Assembly (NCBI RefSeq): GCF_947490405.1 | Contig: NZ_CANLGU010000004.1 | Location: 124,001 to 188,000, forward strand | Direction: 5' to 3' | From: an uncultured Algibacter sp. | GTDB taxonomy: Bacteria; Bacteroidota; Bacteroidia; Flavobacteriales; Flavobacteriaceae | Length of the DNA: 64,000 bases | Shown: piece by piece, positions 5,424 to 58,209 of the stretch | Numbering within the stretch: the first letter of the stretch is position 1 | How the letters are laid out: each line of letters opens with the position of its first letter | Notes under the pieces: model-generated | What the model was told of the DNA's origin: nothing | Databases searched by the model: none | The model's input: only the letters and a program-made list of their open reading frames with translations | Program-made: the position numbers and the translations under genes

Positions 5424-5550
5424 GTATAATTAAGCAATTATTAATTACATGTAACTATAACCAAATCATTTCCTTAGGGAGGGGAATTATCAGTCTTTTA
5501 GTTTCATTTTAATTAACAACAAATATAAACAAATTATAAGACGAAATTAC

Positions 5551-5916
5551 TTACTCTTCAAATGAAATATCTTCTAATTCTGATTCATCAATCTCAATAT
5601 CAAGCTCTTCTAATTCTTGAATTGATTCTTCTTCTAGTTTTTGCTCTGTAGCTTTAATAGCATCTGTATCAGTAACTTTAGTTTCTGTAAATATAGATTT
5701 ATAGGTAGTAAGTAAAAGCGCTGCAATGGTTAAAAGGAAAGAAAACTGAATGATTTTTTTAACTTTTCCTGTTTTTTTTGATATGTAAAAAGCTATTAAT
5801 CCAAAAATTAATGCGGCAATAGCTGGAAATATAGATAAGTTTGATATTGGCAAAACAGCAAGAATAATAGCAAGAATAGATGCAATTAATGCCAGAATAG
5901 TGAATAATTTTTTCAT
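5551..5916 (-). CDS. Small membrane protein with acidic C-terminal tail
   Basis: 121 residues, not recognised. Three hydrophobic helices (about residues 5-25, 28-47 and 57-78) are separated by a basic SKKTGKVKK loop. A strongly acidic tail rich in E and D follows (from about residue 85), ending ESELEDISFEE. It lies 12 bp downstream of the DUF3108 gene on the same strand and is probably co-transcribed with it. Confidence 0.7.
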   Translation of the reverse strand: MKKLFTILALIASILAIILAVLPISNLSIFPAIAALIFGLIAFYISKKTGKVKKIIQFSFLLTIAALLLTTYKSIFTETKVTDTDAIKATEQKLEEESIQELEELDIEIDESELEDISFEE

Positions 5917-5928
5917 CTTAAAACAAAT

Positions 5929-6687
5929 TTAATTCTTTAAACCACTAGCAGATTTTATTTTTAATTCTCCAGTTCCAACAGGAATTTTAAATTTTCCATA
6001 AACAGGAATTTTATTTTCATCTGCACTTAACCATAATGTTGCATTTACAGTGTTTGAATTAACAGAGCCTAATGCTAATTTATAACACGTTTTCTTTCCT
6101 AATGCTGTAGAAATGGATTCTTTACCTAAGTAAGTTACTTTGGCTTTTACTTCTTCACGGTCAAATAAAATGGTAAATACTTTGCTTGTACCAGAACTTA
6201 AATTTGCCAAATCAAAAGTTCTTAAAGTATAAAGTGTTGATATAATATCTTTTGTGTCAGATTTAATGGGAACTGTTTTTTTCTGATTCCAATTACTCTT
6301 TTTCTTAGTCTGTACTGTTTTTACTGTTTTGGTTTTATGGCTAAATGTATATTTAACACTTTTTTGGTACCCACCTTCATTTATATCTCTGTTGTACAAA
6401 TATGGTTTAAGGCTTTTCGGGCTTACATAGCTTTCATATAAGTCTCTTATTTTAAAAAAGTTATCCCATTTACTGTAGGTGGTTGCTTTACATTTTAAGC
6501 GTAACAAAGTAGCTTTAGAAGTCTTAACAACACTTGTTTCCATGGTGATTTCAGCTAAATCGTTTAAAATGCCAGACATGTTATAGGAAGCTGTATAGGT
6601 TAGTTTTTCACCAAAACCAATAGCATTGTTTTGAGCTGAAAGTGAAATAGAAACAAGAAAAAGCAGACAAAAGTAAATACGTCTCAT
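5929..6687 (-). CDS. DUF3108 domain periplasmic protein
   Basis: Exported protein with a clear signal peptide (RRIYFCLLFLVSISLSAQ). The mature part matches the DUF3108 pattern: GFGEKLTYTASYNMSGI at the start, a central FKIRDLYESYV stretch, then the ending NATLWLSADENKIPVYGKF. Function of the family is unknown. I chose the ATG at 6687; the frame is open to 6717, but the added MVRYNQKHYF would precede the basic start of the signal peptide. Confidence 0.8.
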   Translation of the reverse strand: MRRIYFCLLFLVSISLSAQNNAIGFGEKLTYTASYNMSGILNDLAEITMETSVVKTSKATLLRLKCKATTYSKWDNFFKIRDLYESYVSPKSLKPYLYNRDINEGGYQKSVKYTFSHKTKTVKTVQTKKKSNWNQKKTVPIKSDTKDIISTLYTLRTFDLANLSSGTSKVFTILFDREEVKAKVTYLGKESISTALGKKTCYKLALGSVNSNTVNATLWLSADENKIPVYGKFKIPVGTGELKIKSASGLKN

Positions 6688-6864
6688 AAAATAGTGTTTT
6701 TGGTTATAACGTACCATTAATCATTTATTGTGCCGAAAATACAATGCTTAAAACTATTATGCTAATAATTATTCATATTGTATAGCCTATGTTTTACTGA
6801 TTTATGTCATAGTATTTGCATAAATATAGGTGTAAGTTTACTAGATAAACTAAACTTTGAAACC

Positions 6865-7707
6865 GTGAAGAATATATTATTACCAACTGATTTCTCTAAA
6901 AACTCAATGAATGCCATTTGTTACGCAATTGAGTTTTTGAAAAATCAAGAATGTAACTTTCATATATTGAATGTTCAGAAAGCATCTTCATTTATTACAG
7001 ACGATATGATGGTAGTTAATTCATCTACAACTATTTATAAGACACTAATAGATGCTGCGAAAAAGTCAATTGATAATATTATTACAACATTGAACGACGA
7101 GTTTAAAAATAGTAATCATAAATTTCATCCTATTGTTGATTATGATAATTTTATAGACTCCATTAACCAAGCTTGTAAAAAATATAGTATAGATCTAATA
7201 ATTATGGGTACTAAAGGAGCGTCAGGTTTAGGAAAAGTGCTTTTTGGTAGTAATACCGTTCGTGTTATGCAGCGCTGTAACGTTCCAGTATTAGCCATAC
7301 CTGACGGGTGCAAGTTTAAAAAAATAGTAAATCTTGCTTTCGCAACTACAAACTCAAAACAATTTAATCAAGAAGAATTAGAAGTTTTAAATGAAATACA
7401 AATATTAAATAAAGCCTCAGTACAAATTTTGCACCTTGCAGACCAAAACCATTTGGTTTATGATGCCCATGATAATGTCGACTTTCTAAGCAACAACTTC
7501 TTAAATGCAAAGCACGAATTTATTGATACTCCAAGTGATGATATGTATCATGTTGTGCATGATTACATTGAAAAAAATAATATTAACATGCTAGCAATTA
7601 TGAATAAAAGACACTCGTTTCTAGAGCGTCTTTTTAAAACACATACCGTGGAACGATTTGCTTTTAAAATTGATATTCCGCTATTGGTTATGCAAATAAA
7701 CATTTAA
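6865..7707 (+). CDS. Universal stress protein with two UspA domains
   Basis: Cytoplasmic tandem UspA protein. Domain 1 starts KNILLPTDFSKNS and ends with the nucleotide-binding motif MGTKGASGLGKVLFGSNT, matching G-x2-G-x9-G-S/T. Domain 2 (about residues 150-280) lacks a clear copy of that motif. The GTG at 6865 gives the standard N terminus and about 280 residues; the frame stays open upstream to a TTG at 6778, but that 29-residue extension does not look like a Usp. It is followed by a cytochrome c after 37 bp, perhaps in one transcript. Confidence 0.85.
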   Translation: MKNILLPTDFSKNSMNAICYAIEFLKNQECNFHILNVQKASSFITDDMMVVNSSTTIYKTLIDAAKKSIDNIITTLNDEFKNSNHKFHPIVDYDNFIDSINQACKKYSIDLIIMGTKGASGLGKVLFGSNTVRVMQRCNVPVLAIPDGCKFKKIVNLAFATTNSKQFNQEELEVLNEIQILNKASVQILHLADQNHLVYDAHDNVDFLSNNFLNAKHEFIDTPSDDMYHVVHDYIEKNNINMLAIMNKRHSFLERLFKTHTVERFAFKIDIPLLVMQINI

Positions 7708-14442: not shown

Positions 14443-16482
14443 ATGTCAACCAACCGTCATCTAGCAGCTATTATGTTTACTGATATTGAGGGGTACACCT
14501 CATTAATGCAGCATAATGAAAAGGAGGCTGTACAAATGCGAGAGCGTCATAGAAATACTTTTGAAATGACGACCGAGGCATACAATGGTAAAATCATTCA
14601 ATATTTTGGCGATGGTACACTAAGTACTTTTAAAAGCACCGTAGAGGCGGTAGATTGCGCCATAGAATTACAAAAAGCATTTCTTGAAGACCCTAAAATC
14701 CCAATTCGGATTGGAATCCATGTAGGCGATATTATTCATTCTAAAGATGATATTATTGGAGACGCTGTAAATGTGGCTTCAAGAATAGAATCTTGTGCGG
14801 TATCTGGAAGCATTTTAATTTCAGATAAAGTTCACGATCAAATTAGAAGTCATAAACATATAAAAACAACGTTTTTAGACGCTTATGAGTTAAAAAATGT
14901 TGAAGATGCTATGCCATTATTTGCTATTTCAAATGATGGGTTAGTGGTGCCTAAGCCAGAAGAGGTTAAGGGTAAATTAAAAACGTTACCAAATAATAGT
15001 GAAAAAAACATTTCAAAAAAGAAGGCTTTAATTTTAGCAATAACCGCATTTGTAGTTTTATTATCTGCGTTAATAGTATACCAAAACTTTAAAGAAAAAG
15101 CTGAAATTTCTAACGACCTATCTATAGCTGTTTTGCCTTTTGATAATTTAAGTACAGATGATGATGCGGAATTTTTTAGGGATGGTATCACAGAAGATAT
15201 CTTAACCCAATTATCAAAACTAAAAGACTTACGCGTTATTTCAAGAACCTCGGTAATGCAATATAAAAACACCGAAAAAACAATTCCAGAAATAGCCGAA
15301 GAATTGGGTGTGTCTTATATTTTGGAGGGTAGTATTAGAAAGTACGGCGATGATGTTAGAATAACAGCACAATTGATTGATGCTGTAACAGACGAGCATT
15401 TGTGGGCAGAAAACTATGATAAAACCTTAACTAATATTTTCAGTTTACAAACCGAGGTTTCTGAAGAAATTGTTGATGCCTTAGAACTTAATTTGTCTTT
15501 TGAAGAACAACAAGGGTTAGCCATTGTGCCAACAAAAAATATTGAAGCCTATAAGTTGTTTTTAGAAGGTAGAAATGAAGCCGATAAGCGCAATAAAGAA
15601 AGTTTAGCAAAAAGCATTGTGTTTTATAAAGAGGCTATTGCTTTAGATCCTGATTATGCAGAAGCTTACGCAGAAATTGCCAATTCTATTTATTTAGAAA
15701 CCTATTATTCTGATAGAAACGTTAAAGAAGCCTCAGAATTATCGGCAAGTTATTTAGAAAAAGCAGAAGCTATTAATGATAAAGTATCAAGAATTTACTC
15801 CGTAAGAGGACTTATTAATAATTTTCAAGGTAATCAAGAAGCTGCCGATGCTGCCTTTAAAAAAGCCATTGCACTTTCTCCCAACGATTTAACGGCAAGA
15901 CATCAGTACTCTACATTTTTTATGTATACCAATCAAACTAAAAAGCAGTTAGAGCAAGCAGAAATTGCTTATAGATTAGATCCTTTATCCTTCCCAACAG
16001 CCAACAGTTATTTTAGAGCGTTAATGACGAATTACGAGTATCAAAGAGCAGAAACACTACTCAATAAAATTCAAGAATTACACGGTAGTAGTAATCAATT
16101 GGTTGTAGATCGTGCGTATTTTAATTTATATTTAGATCAAGATAAGTTTGATAAAGCCATCCCACATTTAGAAGATATTGTAAAAACAAAAGATGTTTTC
16201 AATCGCTTCTTGGGCTATTGTTATGTAAAAGTAGGCGACACGCTTTCAGGTTACAGAATACTAGATTCCATAAGAAAAAATGCGTACCGCACAGAAAAAA
16301 GCCATCAACTCGCCGTCGTTTTTTCAGCCTTAAAAGAAACCGATAGTGTTTTATTTCATTTAGATACTATAAGGAATAAGCAAACTAGAACTTTTCGCAG
16401 AGAAAGTAAATCATTCTTTAAGTATTTAAAAGACAATCCAGATTACCAGAAAATCCTAAAAGATCACGGCATCCAAAATTAA
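14443..16482 (+). CDS. Class III adenylate cyclase with TolB-like and TPR domains
   Basis: 679 residues. The N-terminal cytoplasmic cyclase domain (about 1-175) has both metal Asp (FTDI, D14; FGDG, D57), the adenine-specifying pair K50 and D103 (NGK, DIIG), and the transition-state pair N110 and R114 (VNVASR). This pattern predicts ATP rather than GTP as substrate. A membrane segment follows near 194-212. Then comes a TolB/FlgO-like domain (SIAVLPFDNLSTDDDAEF, residues about 228-345) and TPR repeats to the C terminus, probably periplasmic. It is divergent from the cyclic-nucleotide-binding sigma54 activator across 107 bp. The external domains may sense a ligand and tune the cyclase. Confidence 0.88.
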   Translation: MSTNRHLAAIMFTDIEGYTSLMQHNEKEAVQMRERHRNTFEMTTEAYNGKIIQYFGDGTLSTFKSTVEAVDCAIELQKAFLEDPKIPIRIGIHVGDIIHSKDDIIGDAVNVASRIESCAVSGSILISDKVHDQIRSHKHIKTTFLDAYELKNVEDAMPLFAISNDGLVVPKPEEVKGKLKTLPNNSEKNISKKKALILAITAFVVLLSALIVYQNFKEKAEISNDLSIAVLPFDNLSTDDDAEFFRDGITEDILTQLSKLKDLRVISRTSVMQYKNTEKTIPEIAEELGVSYILEGSIRKYGDDVRITAQLIDAVTDEHLWAENYDKTLTNIFSLQTEVSEEIVDALELNLSFEEQQGLAIVPTKNIEAYKLFLEGRNEADKRNKESLAKSIVFYKEAIALDPDYAEAYAEIANSIYLETYYSDRNVKEASELSASYLEKAEAINDKVSRIYSVRGLINNFQGNQEAADAAFKKAIALSPNDLTARHQYSTFFMYTNQTKKQLEQAEIAYRLDPLSFPTANSYFRALMTNYEYQRAETLLNKIQELHGSSNQLVVDRAYFNLYLDQDKFDKAIPHLEDIVKTKDVFNRFLGYCYVKVGDTLSGYRILDSIRKNAYRTEKSHQLAVVFSALKETDSVLFHLDTIRNKQTRTFRRESKSFFKYLKDNPDYQKILKDHGIQN

Positions 16483-16555
16483 TATTTCCCCACTCAAGGT
16501 GTAACATTTCAAACTTATATGCGTCATATAAGTATCAATCAATAAATCAATCATC

Positions 16556-16894
16556 ATGAGACAAGACAATCAATTATTAGTCATCACGCATTTAAGTCAG
16601 TTAATCACTTTGGTTACTGGTTTTGGTAGTTTATTATTACCGCTAGTGCTATGGCTTACACAAAAAGAAAAAGTGTATCAAATGGATACCCATGGAAAAA
16701 ACATTATAAACTTCCAGTTAAGTTTAATCGTGTATTGCCTCATCTGTATTCCGTTAATATTATTATTCGGTTTAGGCCTTTTAGGTTTTGTTATTTTAGG
16801 CGTTATATCAGTAGTATTCCCTATTGTAAATGCCATAAGAGCAAGCCGAGGCGAAGCACCAACATATCCTTTATCTCTTAATTTTATTAGTTAG
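16556..16894 (+). CDS. DUF4870 membrane protein
   Basis: 112 residues with hydrophobic helices around a conserved HGKNIINFQLSLIVY motif, which is the DUF4870 signature. Function unknown. It follows the cyclase gene after 73 bp on the same strand and may share its transcript. Confidence 0.82.
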   Translation: MRQDNQLLVITHLSQLITLVTGFGSLLLPLVLWLTQKEKVYQMDTHGKNIINFQLSLIVYCLICIPLILLFGLGLLGFVILGVISVVFPIVNAIRASRGEAPTYPLSLNFIS

Positions 16895-16897
16895 TGA

Positions 16898-16989
16898 ATT
16901 CCCGTGTAGACGGGAATCTTTTAAGGCAAATTCCTTAATCGATTTACGAGATAAACCAAAGCGCTCACTTTTAGTGGGCGTTTTTTTTA
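16898..16989 (+). terminator. Two hairpins downstream of the DUF4870 gene
   Basis: First hairpin ATTCCCG/CGGGAAT (16898-16917) is followed by CTTTT. Second hairpin CGCTCAC/GTGGGCG (16962-16980) is followed by eight or more T and looks like the effective terminator. Confidence 0.65.
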
Positions 16990-17018
16990 GTAAAACTTAA
17001 CTTTAAATAAAAACGACT

Positions 17019-17092
17019 TGTCACATTGAGCGCAGTCGAAATGTCTTGGAAAGTAGAAAACCTAAGAGGTTTCGACTGCGCTCAACCTGACA
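17019..17092. repeat. Long inverted repeat with GAGCGCAGTCGAAA arms
   Basis: Perfect 16-bp arms TTGAGCGCAGTCGAAA (17026-17041) and TTTCGACTGCGCTCAA (17070-17085), extended outward by matching TTGTCA/TGACAA. It would form a stable hairpin. From memory, this type of intergenic palindrome is common in flavobacterial genomes. I saw no second full copy in the window. Confidence 0.75.
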
Positions 17093-17726: not shown

Positions 17727-17865
17727 TTCGTTTAACGGTCTCGTATAACCGTCAGTTACGGGTTAATATGCGTTAATTTTCGGTTTGGCACAGACGTTAG
17801 CAATTCCGAGTGGATTCGGACGTAGTCGAATCCGCCGTAATTGCGGTTATACATTGTTACCATAC
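17727..17865 (-). repeat. attC-like hairpin site B4
   Basis: Outer stem GTATAACCG (17743-17751) with CGGTTATAC (17844-17852); apical stem GGATTCG (17812-17818) with CGAATCC (17827-17833). On the minus strand it opens at GGTAACAATG and closes at GTTAAAC, which fits the integron GTTRRRY box exactly. Confidence 0.6.
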
Positions 17866-17870
17866 GTTTT

Positions 17871-18389
17871 TTATTCTATCATTTTTTTTAACTCAACGAT
17901 ATCTTTTTTAGCATATTTAATATGACAAGATCTATCTCCACAATAAATATAAGGGTCGGAATGTCCTAAATATTTTTTTTCTCTTTTTGATACTTTTTTT
18001 GCATAAATCAAATATTCCTTATCTAAAACTAACAATGGAGAAGTACTGCTATAAATTCTTGCAAATATTTTAATATGTTTCTTGTTTTTTCCTTTAAAAA
18101 GTTTAGAAACTTCAAAAACATACCAGTACTTTTGAATTGGTTGGAAATCTGTTGGCCCATTTTCATCAATATCAGATGATTCAAGAGTCTCTTTTCGTAT
18201 AATTTCTATAACTTTTCCAGTGAATACATATTCAGATTTTTCAAATTCATCTGAAATTGTTGGAATATCAACTATTCCTGGGTATCCTAGACATAATCTT
18301 TTGGAATGAATACTGTCGATTACCTCCCTTTTTCTTTGTCCGTAACCAAGAAAAGAAATCAGTAATATTATTAATGTAATGTTCTTCAT
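17871..18389 (-). CDS. Secreted protein, possible TIMP/NTR-like fold (cassette cargo)
   Basis: 172 residues with a signal peptide ending near GYGQ (residue 17). No family is certain. The pattern SEYVFTGKVIEI ... YVFEVSKLFKG ... VLDKEYLIYAKK ... YCGDRSCHI ... DIVELKKM resembles the TIMP/netrin-like OB-fold proteins widespread in Bacteroidota: a V-x-G-x-V strand, a KLFKG turn, a YLIYA strand and paired Cys near the C terminus. It is the only gene of cassette locus i and is flanked by that unit's own 9-bp inverted repeat. Confidence 0.6.
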   Translation of the reverse strand: MKNITLIILLISFLGYGQRKREVIDSIHSKRLCLGYPGIVDIPTISDEFEKSEYVFTGKVIEIIRKETLESSDIDENGPTDFQPIQKYWYVFEVSKLFKGKNKKHIKIFARIYSSTSPLLVLDKEYLIYAKKVSKREKKYLGHSDPYIYCGDRSCHIKYAKKDIVELKKMIE

Positions 18390-18394
18390 CTAAT

Positions 18395-18481
18395 GTATGG
18401 TAATGTTCCGCGGATATGCGTCGTTTTAATGACTTATATCCGACGTTAAACGAAGTTAGCTAATTTTTCTGACAAAGTCAA
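18395..18481 (-). promoter_or_regulatory. Leader site A4 with conserved promoter-like motif
   Basis: On the minus strand TTG (complement of 18479-18481), 20 nt, then TAACTTCG (complement of 18451-18458). This is one base from the Bacteroidota -7 consensus TAnnTTTG, with a TTG at -33. The leader after it pairs CGGATAT with ATATCCG. The same layout and the same 20-nt spacing recur at 29189-29219 and 58132-58162. Confidence 0.55.
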
Positions 18482-25308: not shown

Positions 25309-25382
25309 GGAGCTATTTCCCGCTTTCCGCTATATCTTTTTTTTGTAGAAAAAAAGGATGCCGCTTCAATCGGGGCTAGGGC
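25309..25382 (+). repeat. Dispersed repeat family R, divergent copy 5
   Basis: GGAGCTATTTCCCGCTTTCC, then TATATCTTTTTTTTGTAG, then AAAAAGGATGCCGCTTCAAT and GGGCTAGGGC. The order (5' arm, TATATCTTTTT core, AAGGATGCC 3' arm) matches copies 1 and 6, but the outer GCGTTACC/TAACGC ends are replaced by GGAGCTA/TAGGGC. Confidence 0.55.
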
Positions 25383-28500: not shown

Positions 28501-28642
28501 TTAGCGATTATCGGTCTAGTGTATGATTTCGTTGCGTGTGCAGGCACTAAAGTTAGCAAATAAATCAACAGATAGAAAGTCCGCAAGGACTTTCGTAAGT
28601 AGCCTTTACTAGCAATGAATTATACACAGTGTTGTTTGTAGT
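28501..28642 (-). repeat. attC-like hairpin site B3
   Basis: Outer stem GTGTATGATT (28519-28528) with AATTATACAC (28618-28627); apical stem GAAAGTCC (28575-28582) with GGACTTTC (28587-28594) closed by a GCAA loop. The stretch AATTATACACAGTGTTG is nearly identical to site B1 (AATTATACACGGTGTTG). Confidence 0.6.
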
Positions 28643-28645
28643 TAT

Positions 28646-29089
28646 TCATTCCACTTTTCCATTTAGTCCATTCCAAGTCAGAGTTTCTTTTTCCAATTTG
28701 GAAAATTCACGGAATAGTTGTCCAAGTTTTTTCAATTCCGCTGGTTTGCATTGTATATTAAATTCAGATATGGATTTTTCAATTCCGTCTTCATTATTAT
28801 TCAACCTAATTCCGACTAAACAGTCACTCGTTTGTTTTATTAATGAGAATTCACACTTAAAATAGAATGCAAATCTATCCTTAGGTTTTTCCGAACCCAA
28901 TTCCCATAAATATTTCTTCTCGTCTTTAAATGGGAAATCTTCAAGAACGTCCGCTAATTTTTTAAGCCTATCCGCATTGTCATAAATCTCAAGTTGTCCC
29001 ATACTGTCTCCATTTGAAGCCTTAAAAATCAAATTAATGTGATAAGGTTCTTCATAAGGATTTCGAGTTATTTTAATTGACTTTTCCAA
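28646..29089 (-). CDS. Hypothetical protein (cassette cargo)
   Basis: 147 residues, no signal peptide, not recognised. A beta-rich start (KITRNPYEEPYHINLIFKAS), a helix with DNADRLKKLADVLEDFPF, a strand FAFYFKCEFSLIKQT, and a C-terminal helix with ELKKLGQLFREFSKLEKE. The single-domain alpha/beta layout is like many small immunity proteins, but I would not assign one. The start is TTG at 29089, immediately preceded by an in-frame TAA. The gene ends 3 bp inside the edge repeat of site B3. Confidence 0.6.
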   Translation of the reverse strand: MEKSIKITRNPYEEPYHINLIFKASNGDSMGQLEIYDNADRLKKLADVLEDFPFKDEKKYLWELGSEKPKDRFAFYFKCEFSLIKQTSDCLVGIRLNNNEDGIEKSISEFNIQCKPAELKKLGQLFREFSKLEKETLTWNGLNGKVE

Positions 29090-32991: not shown

Positions 32992-33042
32992 AATATTAAT
33001 AGATGTATAAATTCCATTCCTTGGAGGGGTTAGGAGTGGGTT

Positions 33043-33170
33043 GCGTTAGGGATTGCAGTGGAAATCCTTTTTGTGAGACTATCAAGACCAAAATATTTTT
33101 TGGTTGAAGATGACGAAGCGAAGCTTACAAAAAGATTGTAACGTAAAGCCCGACCCTTGTGGTAACGCCC
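33043..33170 (-). repeat. Dispersed repeat family R, copy 3
   Basis: Read on the minus strand: GGGCGTTACCACAAGGGTCG, GGCTTTACGTTACAATC, a variable centre (including AACCAAAAAATATTTTGGT, a local hairpin), then AAAGGATTTCCACTGCAATC and CCTAACGC. The open frame that seems to extend the DUF4212 gene upstream of 33185 is this repeat. Confidence 0.8.
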
Positions 33171-55260: not shown

Positions 55261-55408
55261 GCGTTACCACAAGGGTCGGGCTTTACGTTATATCTTTTTA
55301 AAACGTCATTGCGAGGAGTGAGCGACGTAGCAATCTTTCAAATCTAAGCACAAATCAATCTTATAGTTCATTAAGTTTTAAAAAGGATGCCACTGCAATC
55401 CCTAACGC
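55261..55408 (+). repeat. Dispersed repeat family R, copy 6
   Basis: GCGTTACCACAAGGGTCGGG, CTTTACGTTATATCTTTTTA, then a nested CGTCATTGCGAGGAG...GACGTAGCAATCT element, then TTTTAAAAAGGATGCCACTG and CAATCCCTAACGC. It lies 53 bp beyond the boundary of cassette locus iii. The 55180-55589 gap consists of this copy and site B2; I see no gene. Confidence 0.8.
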
Positions 55409-55461
55409 GGGTGTGTTTGCTTGGGGTAATTTAAGACGAAACGCTTAGTTTTCTTGGAGGG

Positions 55462-55597
55462 TTCGTTTAACGTGATTGTGTATGATTAGTGGCGTGGTTT
55501 TGCACTTAACTTTGCAAGTACACACTAAGTTGGAAATTCCGCAGGAATTTCCAAAGTAGGGGAGAACAAGCAATTACTTATAGCCATTGTTATGTGC
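55462..55597 (-). repeat. attC-like hairpin site B2
   Basis: Apical stem TTGGAAATTCC (55530-55540) with GGAATTTCCAA (55544-55554), perfect 11 bp. On the minus strand it opens at GCACATAACAATG, which overlaps the stop codon TAA of the gene, and closes at CACGTTAAACGAACC, where GTTAAAC fits GTTRRRY. Confidence 0.65.
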
Positions 55598-56384
55598 TGA
55601 ATTTTTTATAATAATATTTTGTTTTCGAATCAATTTGGTCATTTACAATAACCACTTCTTCAACCAAATTATTTTCAGAGTCATATTTGTATTCAATTCT
55701 TTTCTTGACTTGAGAATATGTCATTTTAATGAGTTGTCCAATTTCGTTGTACTTTTTTATTAAATATAAATTACCTTTTCTCTTTTTGTTCTCATAAATA
55801 AAGAGCGTATTCTCTTTCTTGTTATGAATGTAAATAGAAGTTGAAGCTTTTTTTCCGTTTGCCTTAAACCTTTCGGTTTTCTTTAACAATCCTTCATTAT
55901 CATAGTAATATTTATAACTCAACCAGAAGTTGTCAAATTTCACATTTTTATTATACAGTTCAGTATTTAAGTTATTCTCATAAATTCTCTTTTGATGTAT
56001 TAATAATTTACCATCTGGACTATGTTGAAAATTCTCTGTTCTATTTCCGTTTTTGTCATAATTATAAGTTAGAATAGTGGATATTTCACCTGATTTATGA
56101 CCAGTTTGTTTATTCATTAATCCATCAGAGTTATATTCGATTATATATTGATAGTGTATTTCCCCATTTTCATTATATCTATTGTCTTTGATATGCTTTC
56201 CTTGTTTGTCATAAATGTCAATTTCTTTTAAAATACTATCATTACTATTTAAATCAAACTCATATTCAAGTCTTTCACTTATTTTATTATTCATTCGTAT
56301 TTTCTGTTCCTCATCAGTGCTAATCTGACTGAAAGCAAAACAAGAATTTAGTGTAAGAATTAATATTAGAAGGTTTATTTTCAT
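55590..56384 (-). CDS. Secreted RHS/YD-repeat-like protein (cassette cargo)
   Basis: 264 residues with signal peptide (KINLLILILTLNSCFAFS). The rest is a beta-repeat protein with YD-type motifs: IDIYDKQGKHIKDNRYNENG, YIIEYNSDGLMNKQ, YNYDKNGNRTENFQHSPDG, YYYDNEGLLKKTERFKANGK and YKYDSENNLVEEV. It has no catalytic or toxin domain, so the function is open. I use ATG 56384; the frame read upstream to 56489 is the translated B1 site. Its stop codon lies inside site B2. Confidence 0.7.
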   Translation of the reverse strand: MKINLLILILTLNSCFAFSQISTDEEQKIRMNNKISERLEYEFDLNSNDSILKEIDIYDKQGKHIKDNRYNENGEIHYQYIIEYNSDGLMNKQTGHKSGEISTILTYNYDKNGNRTENFQHSPDGKLLIHQKRIYENNLNTELYNKNVKFDNFWLSYKYYYDNEGLLKKTERFKANGKKASTSIYIHNKKENTLFIYENKKRKGNLYLIKKYNEIGQLIKMTYSQVKKRIEYKYDSENNLVEEVVIVNDQIDSKTKYYYKKFST

Positions 56385-56407
56385 AAGTTGTTCAATTTTG
56401 CACATAA

Positions 56408-56513
56408 AGTGATTGTGTATGATTATTAGTAAATAAAAACCGAATAGAAAATCCTCGCGGATTTTCGTAAGTAGGCGAGGACTAGCCATTAATTATACAC
56501 GGTGTTGGCAATA
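56408..56513 (-). repeat. attC-like hairpin site B1
   Basis: Outer stem GTGTATGATT with AATTATACAC (ending 56500); apical stem GAAAATCC (56447-56454) with GGATTTTC (56459-56466). Same fold as B3 with compensating base changes in the apical stem. Confidence 0.65.
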
Positions 56514-56528
56514 GTTATTTTCATTTTA

Positions 56529-58034
56529 TTAAAAATCACATCCTCCTAATATTGGTTTGTTTTCATCTGATAAATTTGAGTTTAAACTAAAGTCCGTACA
56601 TCCAATAACCTTGTTAGTATTCCAATTACTTAAATTTTGATTAAAAATAACTGAGCCATTAAACATTAAATGCATATGTGTTACATTGCTAACATTCCAA
56701 TTACTTATATTACTATTAAATGATATTGCATCACGAAACATTGAATGCATGTTGGTTACGTTACTAACATTCCAATCACTTAAATTGCCATTAAATGACG
56801 TAGCTCCACGAAACATGAAAATTGTATTTTTTACATTGCCTAAATTCCAATTGTTCAAATCTTGATTAAAAGATTTAGCTTCATAGAACATACCTTCCAT
56901 ATTTGTTACTTTAGTTACATTCCATTTGCTTATGTCTGAGTTAAAAGAACTTGCACTTGCAAACATATTAGTCATACTTATTACATTACTTACATCCCAG
57001 TTACTTAAATCTTGATTAAAAGAGCTAGCTTTATTAAACATGTTGTCCGTTGCTAAAAGACTACTTACGTCCCAATTACTTATATTTCCATTGAAGGAAC
57101 TAGCTCCGAGAAACATATCTTTCATATTGATTACTTTACTTACGTTCCAGTTATTTAAATCTTGATTAAAAGAAGTAGCCCCTTCGAAAGTAGCCCACAT
57201 GTAATCAATATTACTAACATCCCATGAGTTTAAATCACCATTAAAAGATGTAGCGTTCCTGAACATTTCACCCATACTTGTTACTTGGCTTAAATCAGGA
57301 ATATCTGTTGCGTTTAATTTTAAATTTGTACACCAGCTAAAGGCTTCAGACATACTTCTCCAAGATATGTTTCCCCAGTTTTCTATAGTTTCAATTTTAA
57401 CAGCGTTACTTCCTGTTCTGTTAAATATTGCAGGGAAATCTCCACTAATTTTTACGGTATGAATTCCAGTATCCGAATAATTATGTGTTATATCATTTGT
57501 AACTGATGAAGAAATAGTTCCATCTCCCCATTCAACGGTATAATTGTAATTAGAAGTAATAAAAGGGTTTATATAGATAGTAATATCTTCATTCTCTGTT
57601 GTAGTTTTCCATGTTGTTATAAATTTTGATTCATCAGTCTCAAATTCTTCAACATCAGTGATTGTAATTCTAAAATCAGCAGTTTCAGAAATATCATCAA
57701 TCGTGGCAATAATTTGTCCAGTAATTTCCATGTTGGTTTCAAAATCAAAATCTTTAGGGTTTGAAACAATAATATCATTACCATCTAAAACAATCGCTCC
57801 AGTAATTGATTGACTTGTAATTGTATAATTGGGAGTTTGATTTGAATTTTCAACTGTTGCATTTAGTGTATGAAGTATAAGATTTTCTACAGGATTTTCA
57901 TTTATAGATAATTCTATATCAGAAAAAATAATTGTAACGGTATCGATTTGTTCATTATCAACGCTATCGTTATTGTTTTCGCTAGAACAAGCGCTAAAAA
58001 TAAAAACTAATATTGATAAGTAAATAAATTTCAT
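56529..58034 (-). CDS. BspA-type (DUF285) leucine-rich repeat lipoprotein (cassette cargo)
   Basis: 501 residues. Lipobox LVFIFSAC, Cys16 or so. Residues about 30-135 form a cadherin-like beta domain (FDFETNMEITG, ADFRITITDVEEF). A PKD-like domain (YTVEWGDGTISSSVT) follows. Then about nine 24-residue repeats with consensus MFxxAxSFNxDLxxWxVSxV to the C terminus. Surface-exposed, probably adhesive. ATG 58034 chosen; the frame open to 58061 reads leader DNA. First gene of cassette locus iii. Confidence 0.85.
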   Translation of the reverse strand: MKFIYLSILVFIFSACSSENNNDSVDNEQIDTVTIIFSDIELSINENPVENLILHTLNATVENSNQTPNYTITSQSITGAIVLDGNDIIVSNPKDFDFETNMEITGQIIATIDDISETADFRITITDVEEFETDESKFITTWKTTTENEDITIYINPFITSNYNYTVEWGDGTISSSVTNDITHNYSDTGIHTVKISGDFPAIFNRTGSNAVKIETIENWGNISWRSMSEAFSWCTNLKLNATDIPDLSQVTSMGEMFRNATSFNGDLNSWDVSNIDYMWATFEGATSFNQDLNNWNVSKVINMKDMFLGASSFNGNISNWDVSSLLATDNMFNKASSFNQDLSNWDVSNVISMTNMFASASSFNSDISKWNVTKVTNMEGMFYEAKSFNQDLNNWNLGNVKNTIFMFRGATSFNGNLSDWNVSNVTNMHSMFRDAISFNSNISNWNVSNVTHMHLMFNGSVIFNQNLSNWNTNKVIGCTDFSLNSNLSDENKPILGGCDF

Positions 58035-58052
58035 GGATTTTGTTTTTTTAAT

Positions 58053-58162
58053 TATTGCCAATGTTTTTACGGATATCCGTCGTTTAATACTGAAACAAGT
58101 TCAGCACAGGTGACTTATATCCGACGTTAAACGAAATTATACTTTTTTTCTGACTAAGTCAA
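58053..58162 (-). promoter_or_regulatory. Leader site A1 with conserved promoter-like motif
   Basis: On the minus strand TTG (complement of 58160-58162), 20 nt, TAATTTCG (complement of 58132-58139). It then reads TTCGTTTAACGTCGGATATA, pairs CGGATAT with ATATCCG, and ends at the cassette edge ATTGGCAATA. Upstream TTGACTTAGTCAG is shared with leader A4 (TTGACTTTGTCAG). Confidence 0.55.
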
Positions 58163-58209
58163 GTGTTATAAAAATCAAAAATCACTTCATCAGATTATTA
58201 GAAATTCAG

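Follow-up and report, generated by a model that had tools for sequence, protein, structure and literature searches.

The stretch of DNA analysed here, which we call the window, comprises 64,000 nucleotides (nt) of contig NZ_CANLGU010000004.1 from an uncultured Algibacter sp. of the family Flavobacteriaceae. At positions 55462-58162 it carries two unrelated genes, each followed by a hairpin site, which an initial annotation had described as integron-like tandem gene cassettes. The locus is read on the minus strand, and all its coordinates below are those of the plus strand. It consists of a promoter-like block, a leader hairpin with TTCGTTTAAC, cassette 1, cassette 2 and a terminal GTTAAACGAAC. 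Cassette 1 runs from an edge TTGGCAAT through a DUF285 gene to the inverse edge ATTGCCAAC and its hairpin site; cassette 2 has the same order, with edge TTATGTGC, an RHS-like gene, inverse edge GCACATAAC and a hairpin site. The two genes look like swappable gene cassettes in one of about 20 dedicated slots of the genome. In the following list, R1 is the covariance-type site model used in our searches, which has the two hairpin sites of this locus among its members.

58136-58169, minus strand: promoter-like block upstream of the slot (TTGAC... ...TA..TTCG, overlapping the leader start), a putative promoter
58126-58135, minus strand: outer left edge of the slot, TTCGTTTAAC; the same or nearly the same edge in 58 slots
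58062-58135, minus strand: leader hairpin of the slot, the proposed landing site, with a CTGAACTTGTTTCAG insert in its loop
58054-58061, minus strand: 5' edge of cassette 1, TTGGCAAT
56529-58034, minus strand: cassette 1 gene, a DUF285 repeat protein of 501 amino acids (aa) from the ATG (Pfam DUF285 1.2e-88 for the 510-aa open reading frame, ORF)
56406-56506, minus strand: attC-like hairpin site of cassette 1, arm to 56513 (R1 73.9 bits; belongs to the model's own alignment)
56400-56407, minus strand: 5' edge of cassette 2, TTATGTGC
55590-56384, minus strand: cassette 2 gene, an RHS/YD-repeat-like protein (Pfam RHS_repeat 2.8e-5); the longest ORF, 55590-56489, crosses the hairpin site
55469-55591, minus strand: attC-like hairpin site of cassette 2, arm GCACATAAC to 55597 (R1 97.1 bits; belongs to the model's own alignment)
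55462-55471, minus strand: outer right edge of the slot, GTTAAACGAA

All motifs named in the initial annotation lie where it had placed them. GTGATTGTGTATGATTA is present in both hairpin sites (55472-55488 and 56409-56425), TTGGCAATA at 56505-56513 has an inverted copy at 58053-58061, and TTATGTGC at 55590-55597 has one at 56400-56407, while the outer edges (55462-55471 and 58126-58135) are part of a perfect inverted repeat of 12 nt. The stop codon of the cassette 2 gene (55590-55592) falls within the gene's own inverted edge, as in the overlap of stop codon and site that had been claimed. The 299-aa ORF of this cassette begins within a hairpin site, and the gene likely starts at the ATG at 56384. 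Removal of both cassettes would leave a single hairpin with matched outer ends; this predicted empty site served as the main test.

We looked for such slots in a genus sample of ten genomes, our own (G000) included. The leader motif gave 20 matches at up to two mismatches in G000, compared to none for the reversed control, and 57 matches in seven of the ten genomes. Parsing yielded 58 slot leaders in six genomes (22 in G000, 15 in G002, 10 in G007, 5 in G009, and 3 each in G008 and G001), with a single leader of G003 left out. TTGA[CTA] was found in 57 of the 58 and TA..TTCG over the leader start in 54, frequencies that hold partly by construction, as the block doubled as a parsing filter (58 leaders versus 5 reverse-strand right-end matches). 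The promoter-like reading of the block follows the -33/-7 promoter consensus of Bacteroidetes. Where the left outer edge is TTTACC, it pairs with a right GGTAAA 1.0-2.2 kilobases (kb) away (L002, L041, L042); at L065 the right edge changes only partly with a TTTACC left edge, and at L067 the left edge changes to TTTGAC without a matching change on the right. Some slots stand in tandem: three leaders in a row, one of them empty, at L047 (G000:C2:662800-671600), and two leaders at the orthologous place L076 (G007:C11:71300-79500). An extra CTGAACTTGTTTCAG-type hairpin occupies the leader loop in the window (58062-58135) and in L002, L040, L041, L059, L082 and L084.

The empty site predicted by the initial annotation, a leader joined directly to TTAAACGAAC, was present in 11 of the 58 slots (L040, L044, L045, the second of L047, L054, L060, L062, L064, L072, L075 and L080), and the other 47 were filled, and other cargo with the same outer flanks thus also exists. 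Both flanks could be aligned in 13 orthologous slot groups, at 74-99% flank identity (in one, L047/L076, the right flank is short because the slots are tandem there); six further slot pairs, alignable on one flank only, were kept outside this set. Consistent with the empty or swapped sites expected in relatives, in six groups one species had an empty slot and another a filled one, six groups held unrelated cassettes and one was empty in both, and no pair had more than 300 nt of cassette DNA in common. The slot of our locus is one of the swapped pairs: its orthologue in G002 (L059) holds a cassette with two DUF6090-like genes, one of them above the Pfam cut-off. In one slot, four species carry four different cassettes (L037, L057, L074, L079), and one cassette family occurs at non-orthologous slots of two species (L001 and L076, 74% over 787 nt). 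These outcomes may reflect site-specific excision and insertion of cassettes.

Near-identical outer inverted ends and 20 leader-motif copies in one genome would also suit non-autonomous transposons akin to miniature inverted-repeat transposable elements, with TTCGTTTAAC as terminal inverted repeats, that acquire cargo. We regard this as very improbable, because the slots are orthologous across species between flanks of 74-99% identity and an empty slot still has its promoter-like block and its two outer ends, so that only the interior varies. Moreover, the inner edges are cassette-specific, and the same site family occurs in tandem arrays with changing edges.

The cassette-specific edges were examined by taking the 5' edge of each filled slot at the leader junction. 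An exact 8-nt inverse of this edge was found before the terminal mate in 38 of 47 filled slots, and when foreign edges were tried in these regions, 104 of 1692 matched; within the last 320 nt only, the values were 35/47 and 36/1692. The paired edges therefore exceed chance, and the inverted edges specific to each cassette that the initial annotation had reported are a general property of the slots. Its further proposal, that a cassette carries the TTRRRY end of its own attC at the 5' edge, stands as to the pairing (38/47) and falls as to the sequence: TTRRRY fits only 1 of 47 cassette edges and none of the 33 edges with a paired arm. The slot outer edge GTTAAAC does fit GTTRRRY, as had been noted.

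For the fold of the hairpin sites, we aligned 30 sites, including the two of our locus and excluding L048, L073 and one duplicate. AAC is invariant and GTT nearly so. Read on the bottom strand, 97.0% of the stem is paired, and 11 of 19 pairs show double changes. The covariation score is 0.363; shuffles gave 0.091, with none of 500 as high, and slid controls did not exceed 0.105. Two stem pairs are G.T on the bottom strand and A.C mismatches on the coding strand (columns 16-122 in 27/30 sites, columns 22-117 in 29/29). Among 33 arms, complementarity holds at position 9 in 24, at position 11 in 30 and at position 12 in 31, and at position 10 a coding-strand A lies opposite C in 29, which is again G.T on the bottom strand. 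Three conserved positions, two in the stem and one in the arm, thus pair solely on the bottom strand.

Strand preference was also evident when the DNA was folded in ring form. This set of 31 comprised the sites less than 140 nt before the mate, that is, 30 of the 38 with a paired edge (L041 having two leaders) and L073, a near-palindromic insert that failed the exact-inverse test. Outside it were eight of the 38: the first cassettes of our slot and of L065, which are the only first cassettes of two-cassette slots among the eight, L071 with a longer site, and five matches placed as if by chance. The bottom strand was more stable in 31 of 31 sites, by 4.36 kcal/mol on average (mean difference -4.36, versus 0.05 with sd 1.88 for the same comparison in random pieces), and also in the two sites of our locus (-15.4 vs -12.6 and -22.1 vs -20.8). 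For attC, excerpts of one paper describe recombination for the folded bottom strand only (PMC11023631).

Could the hairpins and paired ends instead act in RNA, as untranslated-region structures, terminators or riboregulators, with ordinary homologous recombination turning over the genes? The promoter-like block of the slots would fit such a role, as would the empty leader, which folds on both strands, and the Flavo-1 RNA that abuts the locus. Pairing and stability specific to the bottom strand argue against a role in the sense transcript: the coding strand conserves A.C where only the bottom strand has G.T (27/30, 29/29 and, in the arm, 29/33), and constraint on a sense RNA would give the opposite of a bottom strand that wins in every site. 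Of the explanations weighed here, we consider this one the least probable.

The integron-like reading calls for a recombinase. The initial annotation had found no IntI in the window, and the TIGR02249 search of our genome likewise gave no match there. Elsewhere the genome does have an integrase, albeit not an IntI: at C7:2421-3539, behind a presumably pnp-like gene, a 372-aa tyrosine recombinase is followed by a co-oriented cassette array with edges TTGCCAGT, TTGTGTGT, TTGGCAAT and TTGTACAC, three R1 sites and a last cassette that runs off the contig end. The R, K, H-R, H and Y columns, which we take to be the catalytic residues, are invariant in 11 aligned recombinases. Against TIGR02249 the C7 integrase scored 191.9 bits (cut-off 265) and left the model uncovered between positions 178 and 240; the IntI1 control protein reached 508.6 bits in one stretch. 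It is closest to XerA-type recombinases (NF040815, 210.7 bits at a cut-off of 220; PDB 5hxy), and the name of NF040815 itself reads 'site-specific tyrosine recombinase/integron integrase'. Seven relatives reached 173-217 bits with TIGR02249, and three of them pass NF040815. The IntI-specific insert is missing, with 30 residues at this place in the C7 integrase versus 73 in IntI 2a3v; a segment of about 42 residues of IntI1 is absent from all eight aligned Bacteroidota recombinases. Relative to IntI, about 100 additional N-terminal residues are present. In a tree, the Bacteroidota recombinases stood apart from XerC and the XerD-like protein, and the single, long-branched IntI1 was placed unsurely.

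Searching beyond the locus for the covariance of the sites, as had been proposed, revealed them genome-wide and in tandem arrays beside the integrase. R1 sites occur in all ten genus genomes (14 to 71 each, E<=0.001), and an integrase lies beside co-oriented sites in six of them (G000, G001, G002, G003, G007 and G008). That of G002 is split over two frames with one stop, and that of G007 has at least 21 adjacent sites in 35 kb. Of 80 named loci collected with an integrase profile, 11 contain R1 sites, 25 in all. In ten of these (L101 from Algibacter onchidii, L103, L110, L112, L117 from Zunongwangia mangrovi, L118, L120, L131, L132 and L140 from Lutibacter), 23 sites lie downstream and co-oriented; the remaining two lie upstream on the other strand in L150. 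In L101, L120, L140 and L117, 9 of 13 consecutive steps follow the edge rule, by which the inverse of the arm is the edge behind the previous site (8-9 nt), and in three of the other four the edge is found elsewhere in between. A Chryseobacterium plasmid (Weeksellaceae) carries an integrase with four co-oriented sites, two clear and two weaker. On this plasmid (L182, NZ_CP041688.1 7035-26048), two of the sites are separated by a gene for a group II intron reverse transcriptase (15738-17054).

Several candidates were set aside or ranked lower. Of 11 loci whose first edge could be defined, 7 have an ATATAA(A)C..AG|TT-like stretch there; as so short a pattern is unspecific on its own, a firm attI assignment beside the integrase was dropped. 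XerC was rejected as the system's integrase: the TIGR02249 match beside the L039 slot (C7:197375) most resembles XerC and scores 294.2 bits with TIGR02224 (cut-off 335). The xerC-like gene (6112-7002) has the leader of that slot (5550-5600) on its upstream side, in divergent orientation, and we attribute this vicinity to coincidence. A less favoured candidate is the C4-type recombinase (C4:1733-2884, beside what we take to be a secA-like gene). It forms a separate tree group together with its G004 and G006 relatives; a single R1 site lies about 1.5 kb off on the other strand, and the stretch examined contains no array. A model-free chain scan of 19 named loci (links downstream on the integrase strand 2, downstream on the opposite strand 5, upstream 0) missed the L101 array; it was discarded as insensitive and superseded by direct reading of R1 sites. 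Five viral contigs with the 17-nt motif were taken as chance matches, as none of them shows a surrounding site by eye.

Across the family, R1 sites (E<=1e-6, at most 17 scored per genome) were found in 180 of 199 genomes and 179 of 198 genera. We take this family to be Flavobacteriaceae, since one genome of the set (G134) agrees with that of Algibacter onchidii in site position and score. A strong integrase match was present in 135 of the 180 site-bearing genomes but only 1 of 19 site-free ones (135/45/1/18, Fisher p 2e-9), the threshold of E<1e-65 having been set after the two-humped distribution was seen; with genomes below 2 Mb left out, the counts were 134/42/1/7 (p 4e-4). Within one genus of the family (g111), 3 of 14 genomes have sites among the matches listed, and phylum-wide 58 of 247 genomes do. 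In a control set, none of 15 genomes from outside the Bacteroidota had sites, and five Bacteroidota genomes had 30, 23, 1, 0 and 0. Most of the 15 belong to groups known for high G+C, which makes this control only partial.

The slots might also be remnants of classical integrons, namely clusters of attC sites lacking integron-integrases (CALIN) or single attC sites, moved by a true IntI that was since lost. Their distance from the integrase suits this explanation, as do a solitary, apparently decayed site in the window and the 45 site-bearing family genomes without a strong integrase match. We nevertheless judge it unlikely. TIGR02249 exceeded its cut-off in none of the 199 family genomes, an absence that is unproven because the control genomes likewise gave none, although the IntI1 protein passed clearly (508.6 vs 265). 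In addition, hardly any cassette edge fits TTRRRY, and the slots are fixed between species while their contents turn over.

Taken together, we favour a divergent, non-IntI, integron-like system of gene-cassette exchange with dispersed, promoter-armed landing sites, at a probability of roughly 0.85. In this system, a cassette would be one gene or a few in sense orientation with a hairpin site at the 3' end, and its 5' edge would supply the missing half of this site, with TT-N6 opening the cassette and N6-AAC preceding the hairpin. Closed into a ring, the cassette would have a whole site again. Such rings may be the intermediates. The target of the enzyme would be the single-stranded hairpin of the bottom strand, whose stem has two conserved G.T pairs and whose arm has one. 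The C7 integrase, a non-IntI tyrosine recombinase, is the candidate enzyme for cassette insertion and removal at the dispersed slots, which number about 20 and each combine a promoter-like block with a hairpin whose outer ends are TTCGTTTAAC/GTTAAACGAAC. The slot promoter would drive the cassette, and a filled slot would thus express its content. The integron analogy of the initial annotation came out supported by the tests that were run, except in layout: dispersed single slots with promoter blocks are no normal integron arrangement. The system works like an integron but lacks two of its defining features, the IntI insert and GTTRRRY edges, and so is not a classical integron.

Several observations weigh against this interpretation. 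Nine of the 47 filled slots have no exact inverse of their own edge (L038, L050, L055, L063, L066, L073, L082, L084, L085), with partial inverses of 6 nt in L050 and 7 nt in L082 and L084, and five of the 38 matches are placed as if by chance (L058, L068, L079, L081, L086). A strictly conservative exchange of the integron type would leave the leader unchanged; the leader bridges conflict with this expectation. A palindromic bridge before TT occurs in one of the 47 filled leaders and in three of the 11 empty ones, the commonest bridge, TCCGTAAAAACA, in 13 of 47 and 3 of 11, and the base preceding TT in filled leaders is A, not G, in 38 of 47. As to the integrase, no site was found within flanks of about 1.5 kb around those of G004, G005, G006 and G009 or around the second one of G001; in G004 and G006, sites are accompanied only by the C4-type relative. 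R1 marked nothing in 69 of the 80 named loci, and 45 of the 180 site-bearing family genomes are without a strong match. Small genome size is a confounder of the joint absence of integrase and sites, and the orthologous slots were compared between species rather than strains. The leader bridges and the integrase linkage missing in part of the genus lowered our confidence slightly.

Of the filled slots with a defined end, 40 of 44 contain an ORF of at least 60 aa; in all 40 the largest ORF is in sense, and the mean coding share is 0.82. No such ORF was found in L038, L055, L058 and L073. Cassette proteins were scanned with Pfam (30) and PADLOC (10), and the two of our locus separately with Pfam; many matched nothing in these scans. 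Among the matches were an AbiLi/RloB pair (L002), a Fic protein (L003), a PARIS-AriA/Gabija-like ATPase (L037), a caspase-like protein (L046), a NACHT protein (L067) and a Septu-like pair (L083). Defence genes in integron cassettes are known from elsewhere. L055 and L058, both of G002, hold 225-nt inserts that are identical at 220 positions and have different edges, perhaps a cassette without a gene.

Further sites of the same family lie in the window, among them a second slot spanning 17727-18454:

18404-18454, minus strand: leader hairpin of the second slot, with a promoter-like block immediately upstream
17871-18389, minus strand: cassette gene of the second slot, 172 aa
17734-17858, minus strand: attC-like site of the second slot (R1 77.9 bits), followed by the outer edge GTTAAACGAAC at 17727-17736
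28510-28633, minus strand: solitary attC-like site behind a 147-aa ORF at 28646-29089 (R1 93.6 bits)

The 172-aa protein has no Pfam match and no match at E<=1e-8 in the nine other genus genomes; it shows a weak likeness to a cassette protein of the C7 array (30% over 131). For the solitary site, a search for a matching 5' edge found none, and it is probably a stranded, decayed cassette. Hairpins occurring without genes and edge repeats had been named as a sign against cassettes; this one does stand outside a slot and without a matching edge. The window also contains three Flavo-1 RNAs (RF01705), at 55270-55416 (minus), 25312-25381 (minus) and 33040-33159 (plus), the first of which lies on the strand of the cassette locus, directly behind it. 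The RF01705 covariance model did not match the cassette hairpin sites of the locus, which Flavo-1 only adjoins.

With chromosomal integrons the system shares tandem sense cassettes, a 3' hairpin site whose other half is the 5' edge of the cassette, an AAC/GTT core, a preferred bottom-strand fold and a tyrosine recombinase beside the array. It differs in an integrase with about 100 extra N-terminal residues and no IntI-specific insert, in edges other than GTTRRRY, in an array that lies 3' of the integrase in the same direction, and in some 20 separate slots besides the arrays. By description only, this arrangement is like the reversed-orientation integrons of Spirochaetota, in which integrase and cassettes also share a direction, according to the part of that report concerned (PMC9668308). 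As in CALIN or single attC sites, cassettes stand away from an integrase, which is true of the window slot in a genome that has both integrase and array; unlike those, the slots are conserved loci that have fixed outer edges and a promoter-like leader whether or not they contain a cassette. Excerpts of two papers (PMC12444791, PMC11023631) describe attG insertion (Loot et al. 2024, as cited there) as broad, over many loci. Cassettes there also enter the chromosome outside an array, as those excerpts have it, but the targets in Algibacter are one repeated, conserved module of hairpin and promoter-like block. XerA-type recombinases (NF040815, PDB 5hxy) are the closest match of the integrase core and differ from the C7 integrase in its N-terminal extension and its linkage to cassette arrays.

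Open-access literature yielded no description of such a system, in a search that did not cover subscription papers and preprints. The relevant section of the IntegronFinder 2.0 paper states that only In0 elements had been seen in Bacteroidetes, followed by one complete integron in Salinibacter ruber, and calls clades lacking integrons intriguing, hinting at some incompatibility (PMC9024848). An excerpt of another paper lists Bacteroidota among integron-bearing phyla (PMC8618304), and a set of attC models for 11 taxa names no Bacteroidetes in the part that describes it (PMC8352920). In further excerpts, the IntI-specific domain is treated as the mark of IntI (PMC9668308), and the corresponding insertion as not fully conserved in a subgroup and essential for integron function (PMC8138268). 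Against this background, we lean, with less confidence than for the system itself, towards a second kind of integron: one with a non-IntI recombinase that has its own N-terminal domain, near-universal in Flavobacteriaceae and overlooked because finders need the IntI domain. In some genomes it would be joined by a fixed network of about 20 promoter-armed, single-cassette slots that may express many cassettes at once.

If this is true, most sampled genera of one Bacteroidota family would possess a divergent integron-like system, with phage-defence-like genes among its cargo. This would imply that single-strand hairpins can probably be recombined by routes other than the IntI-specific insertion. 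Parallel expression slots would make expression beyond the first few cassettes directly testable, and many orphan genes of such genomes would become readable as cassettes.

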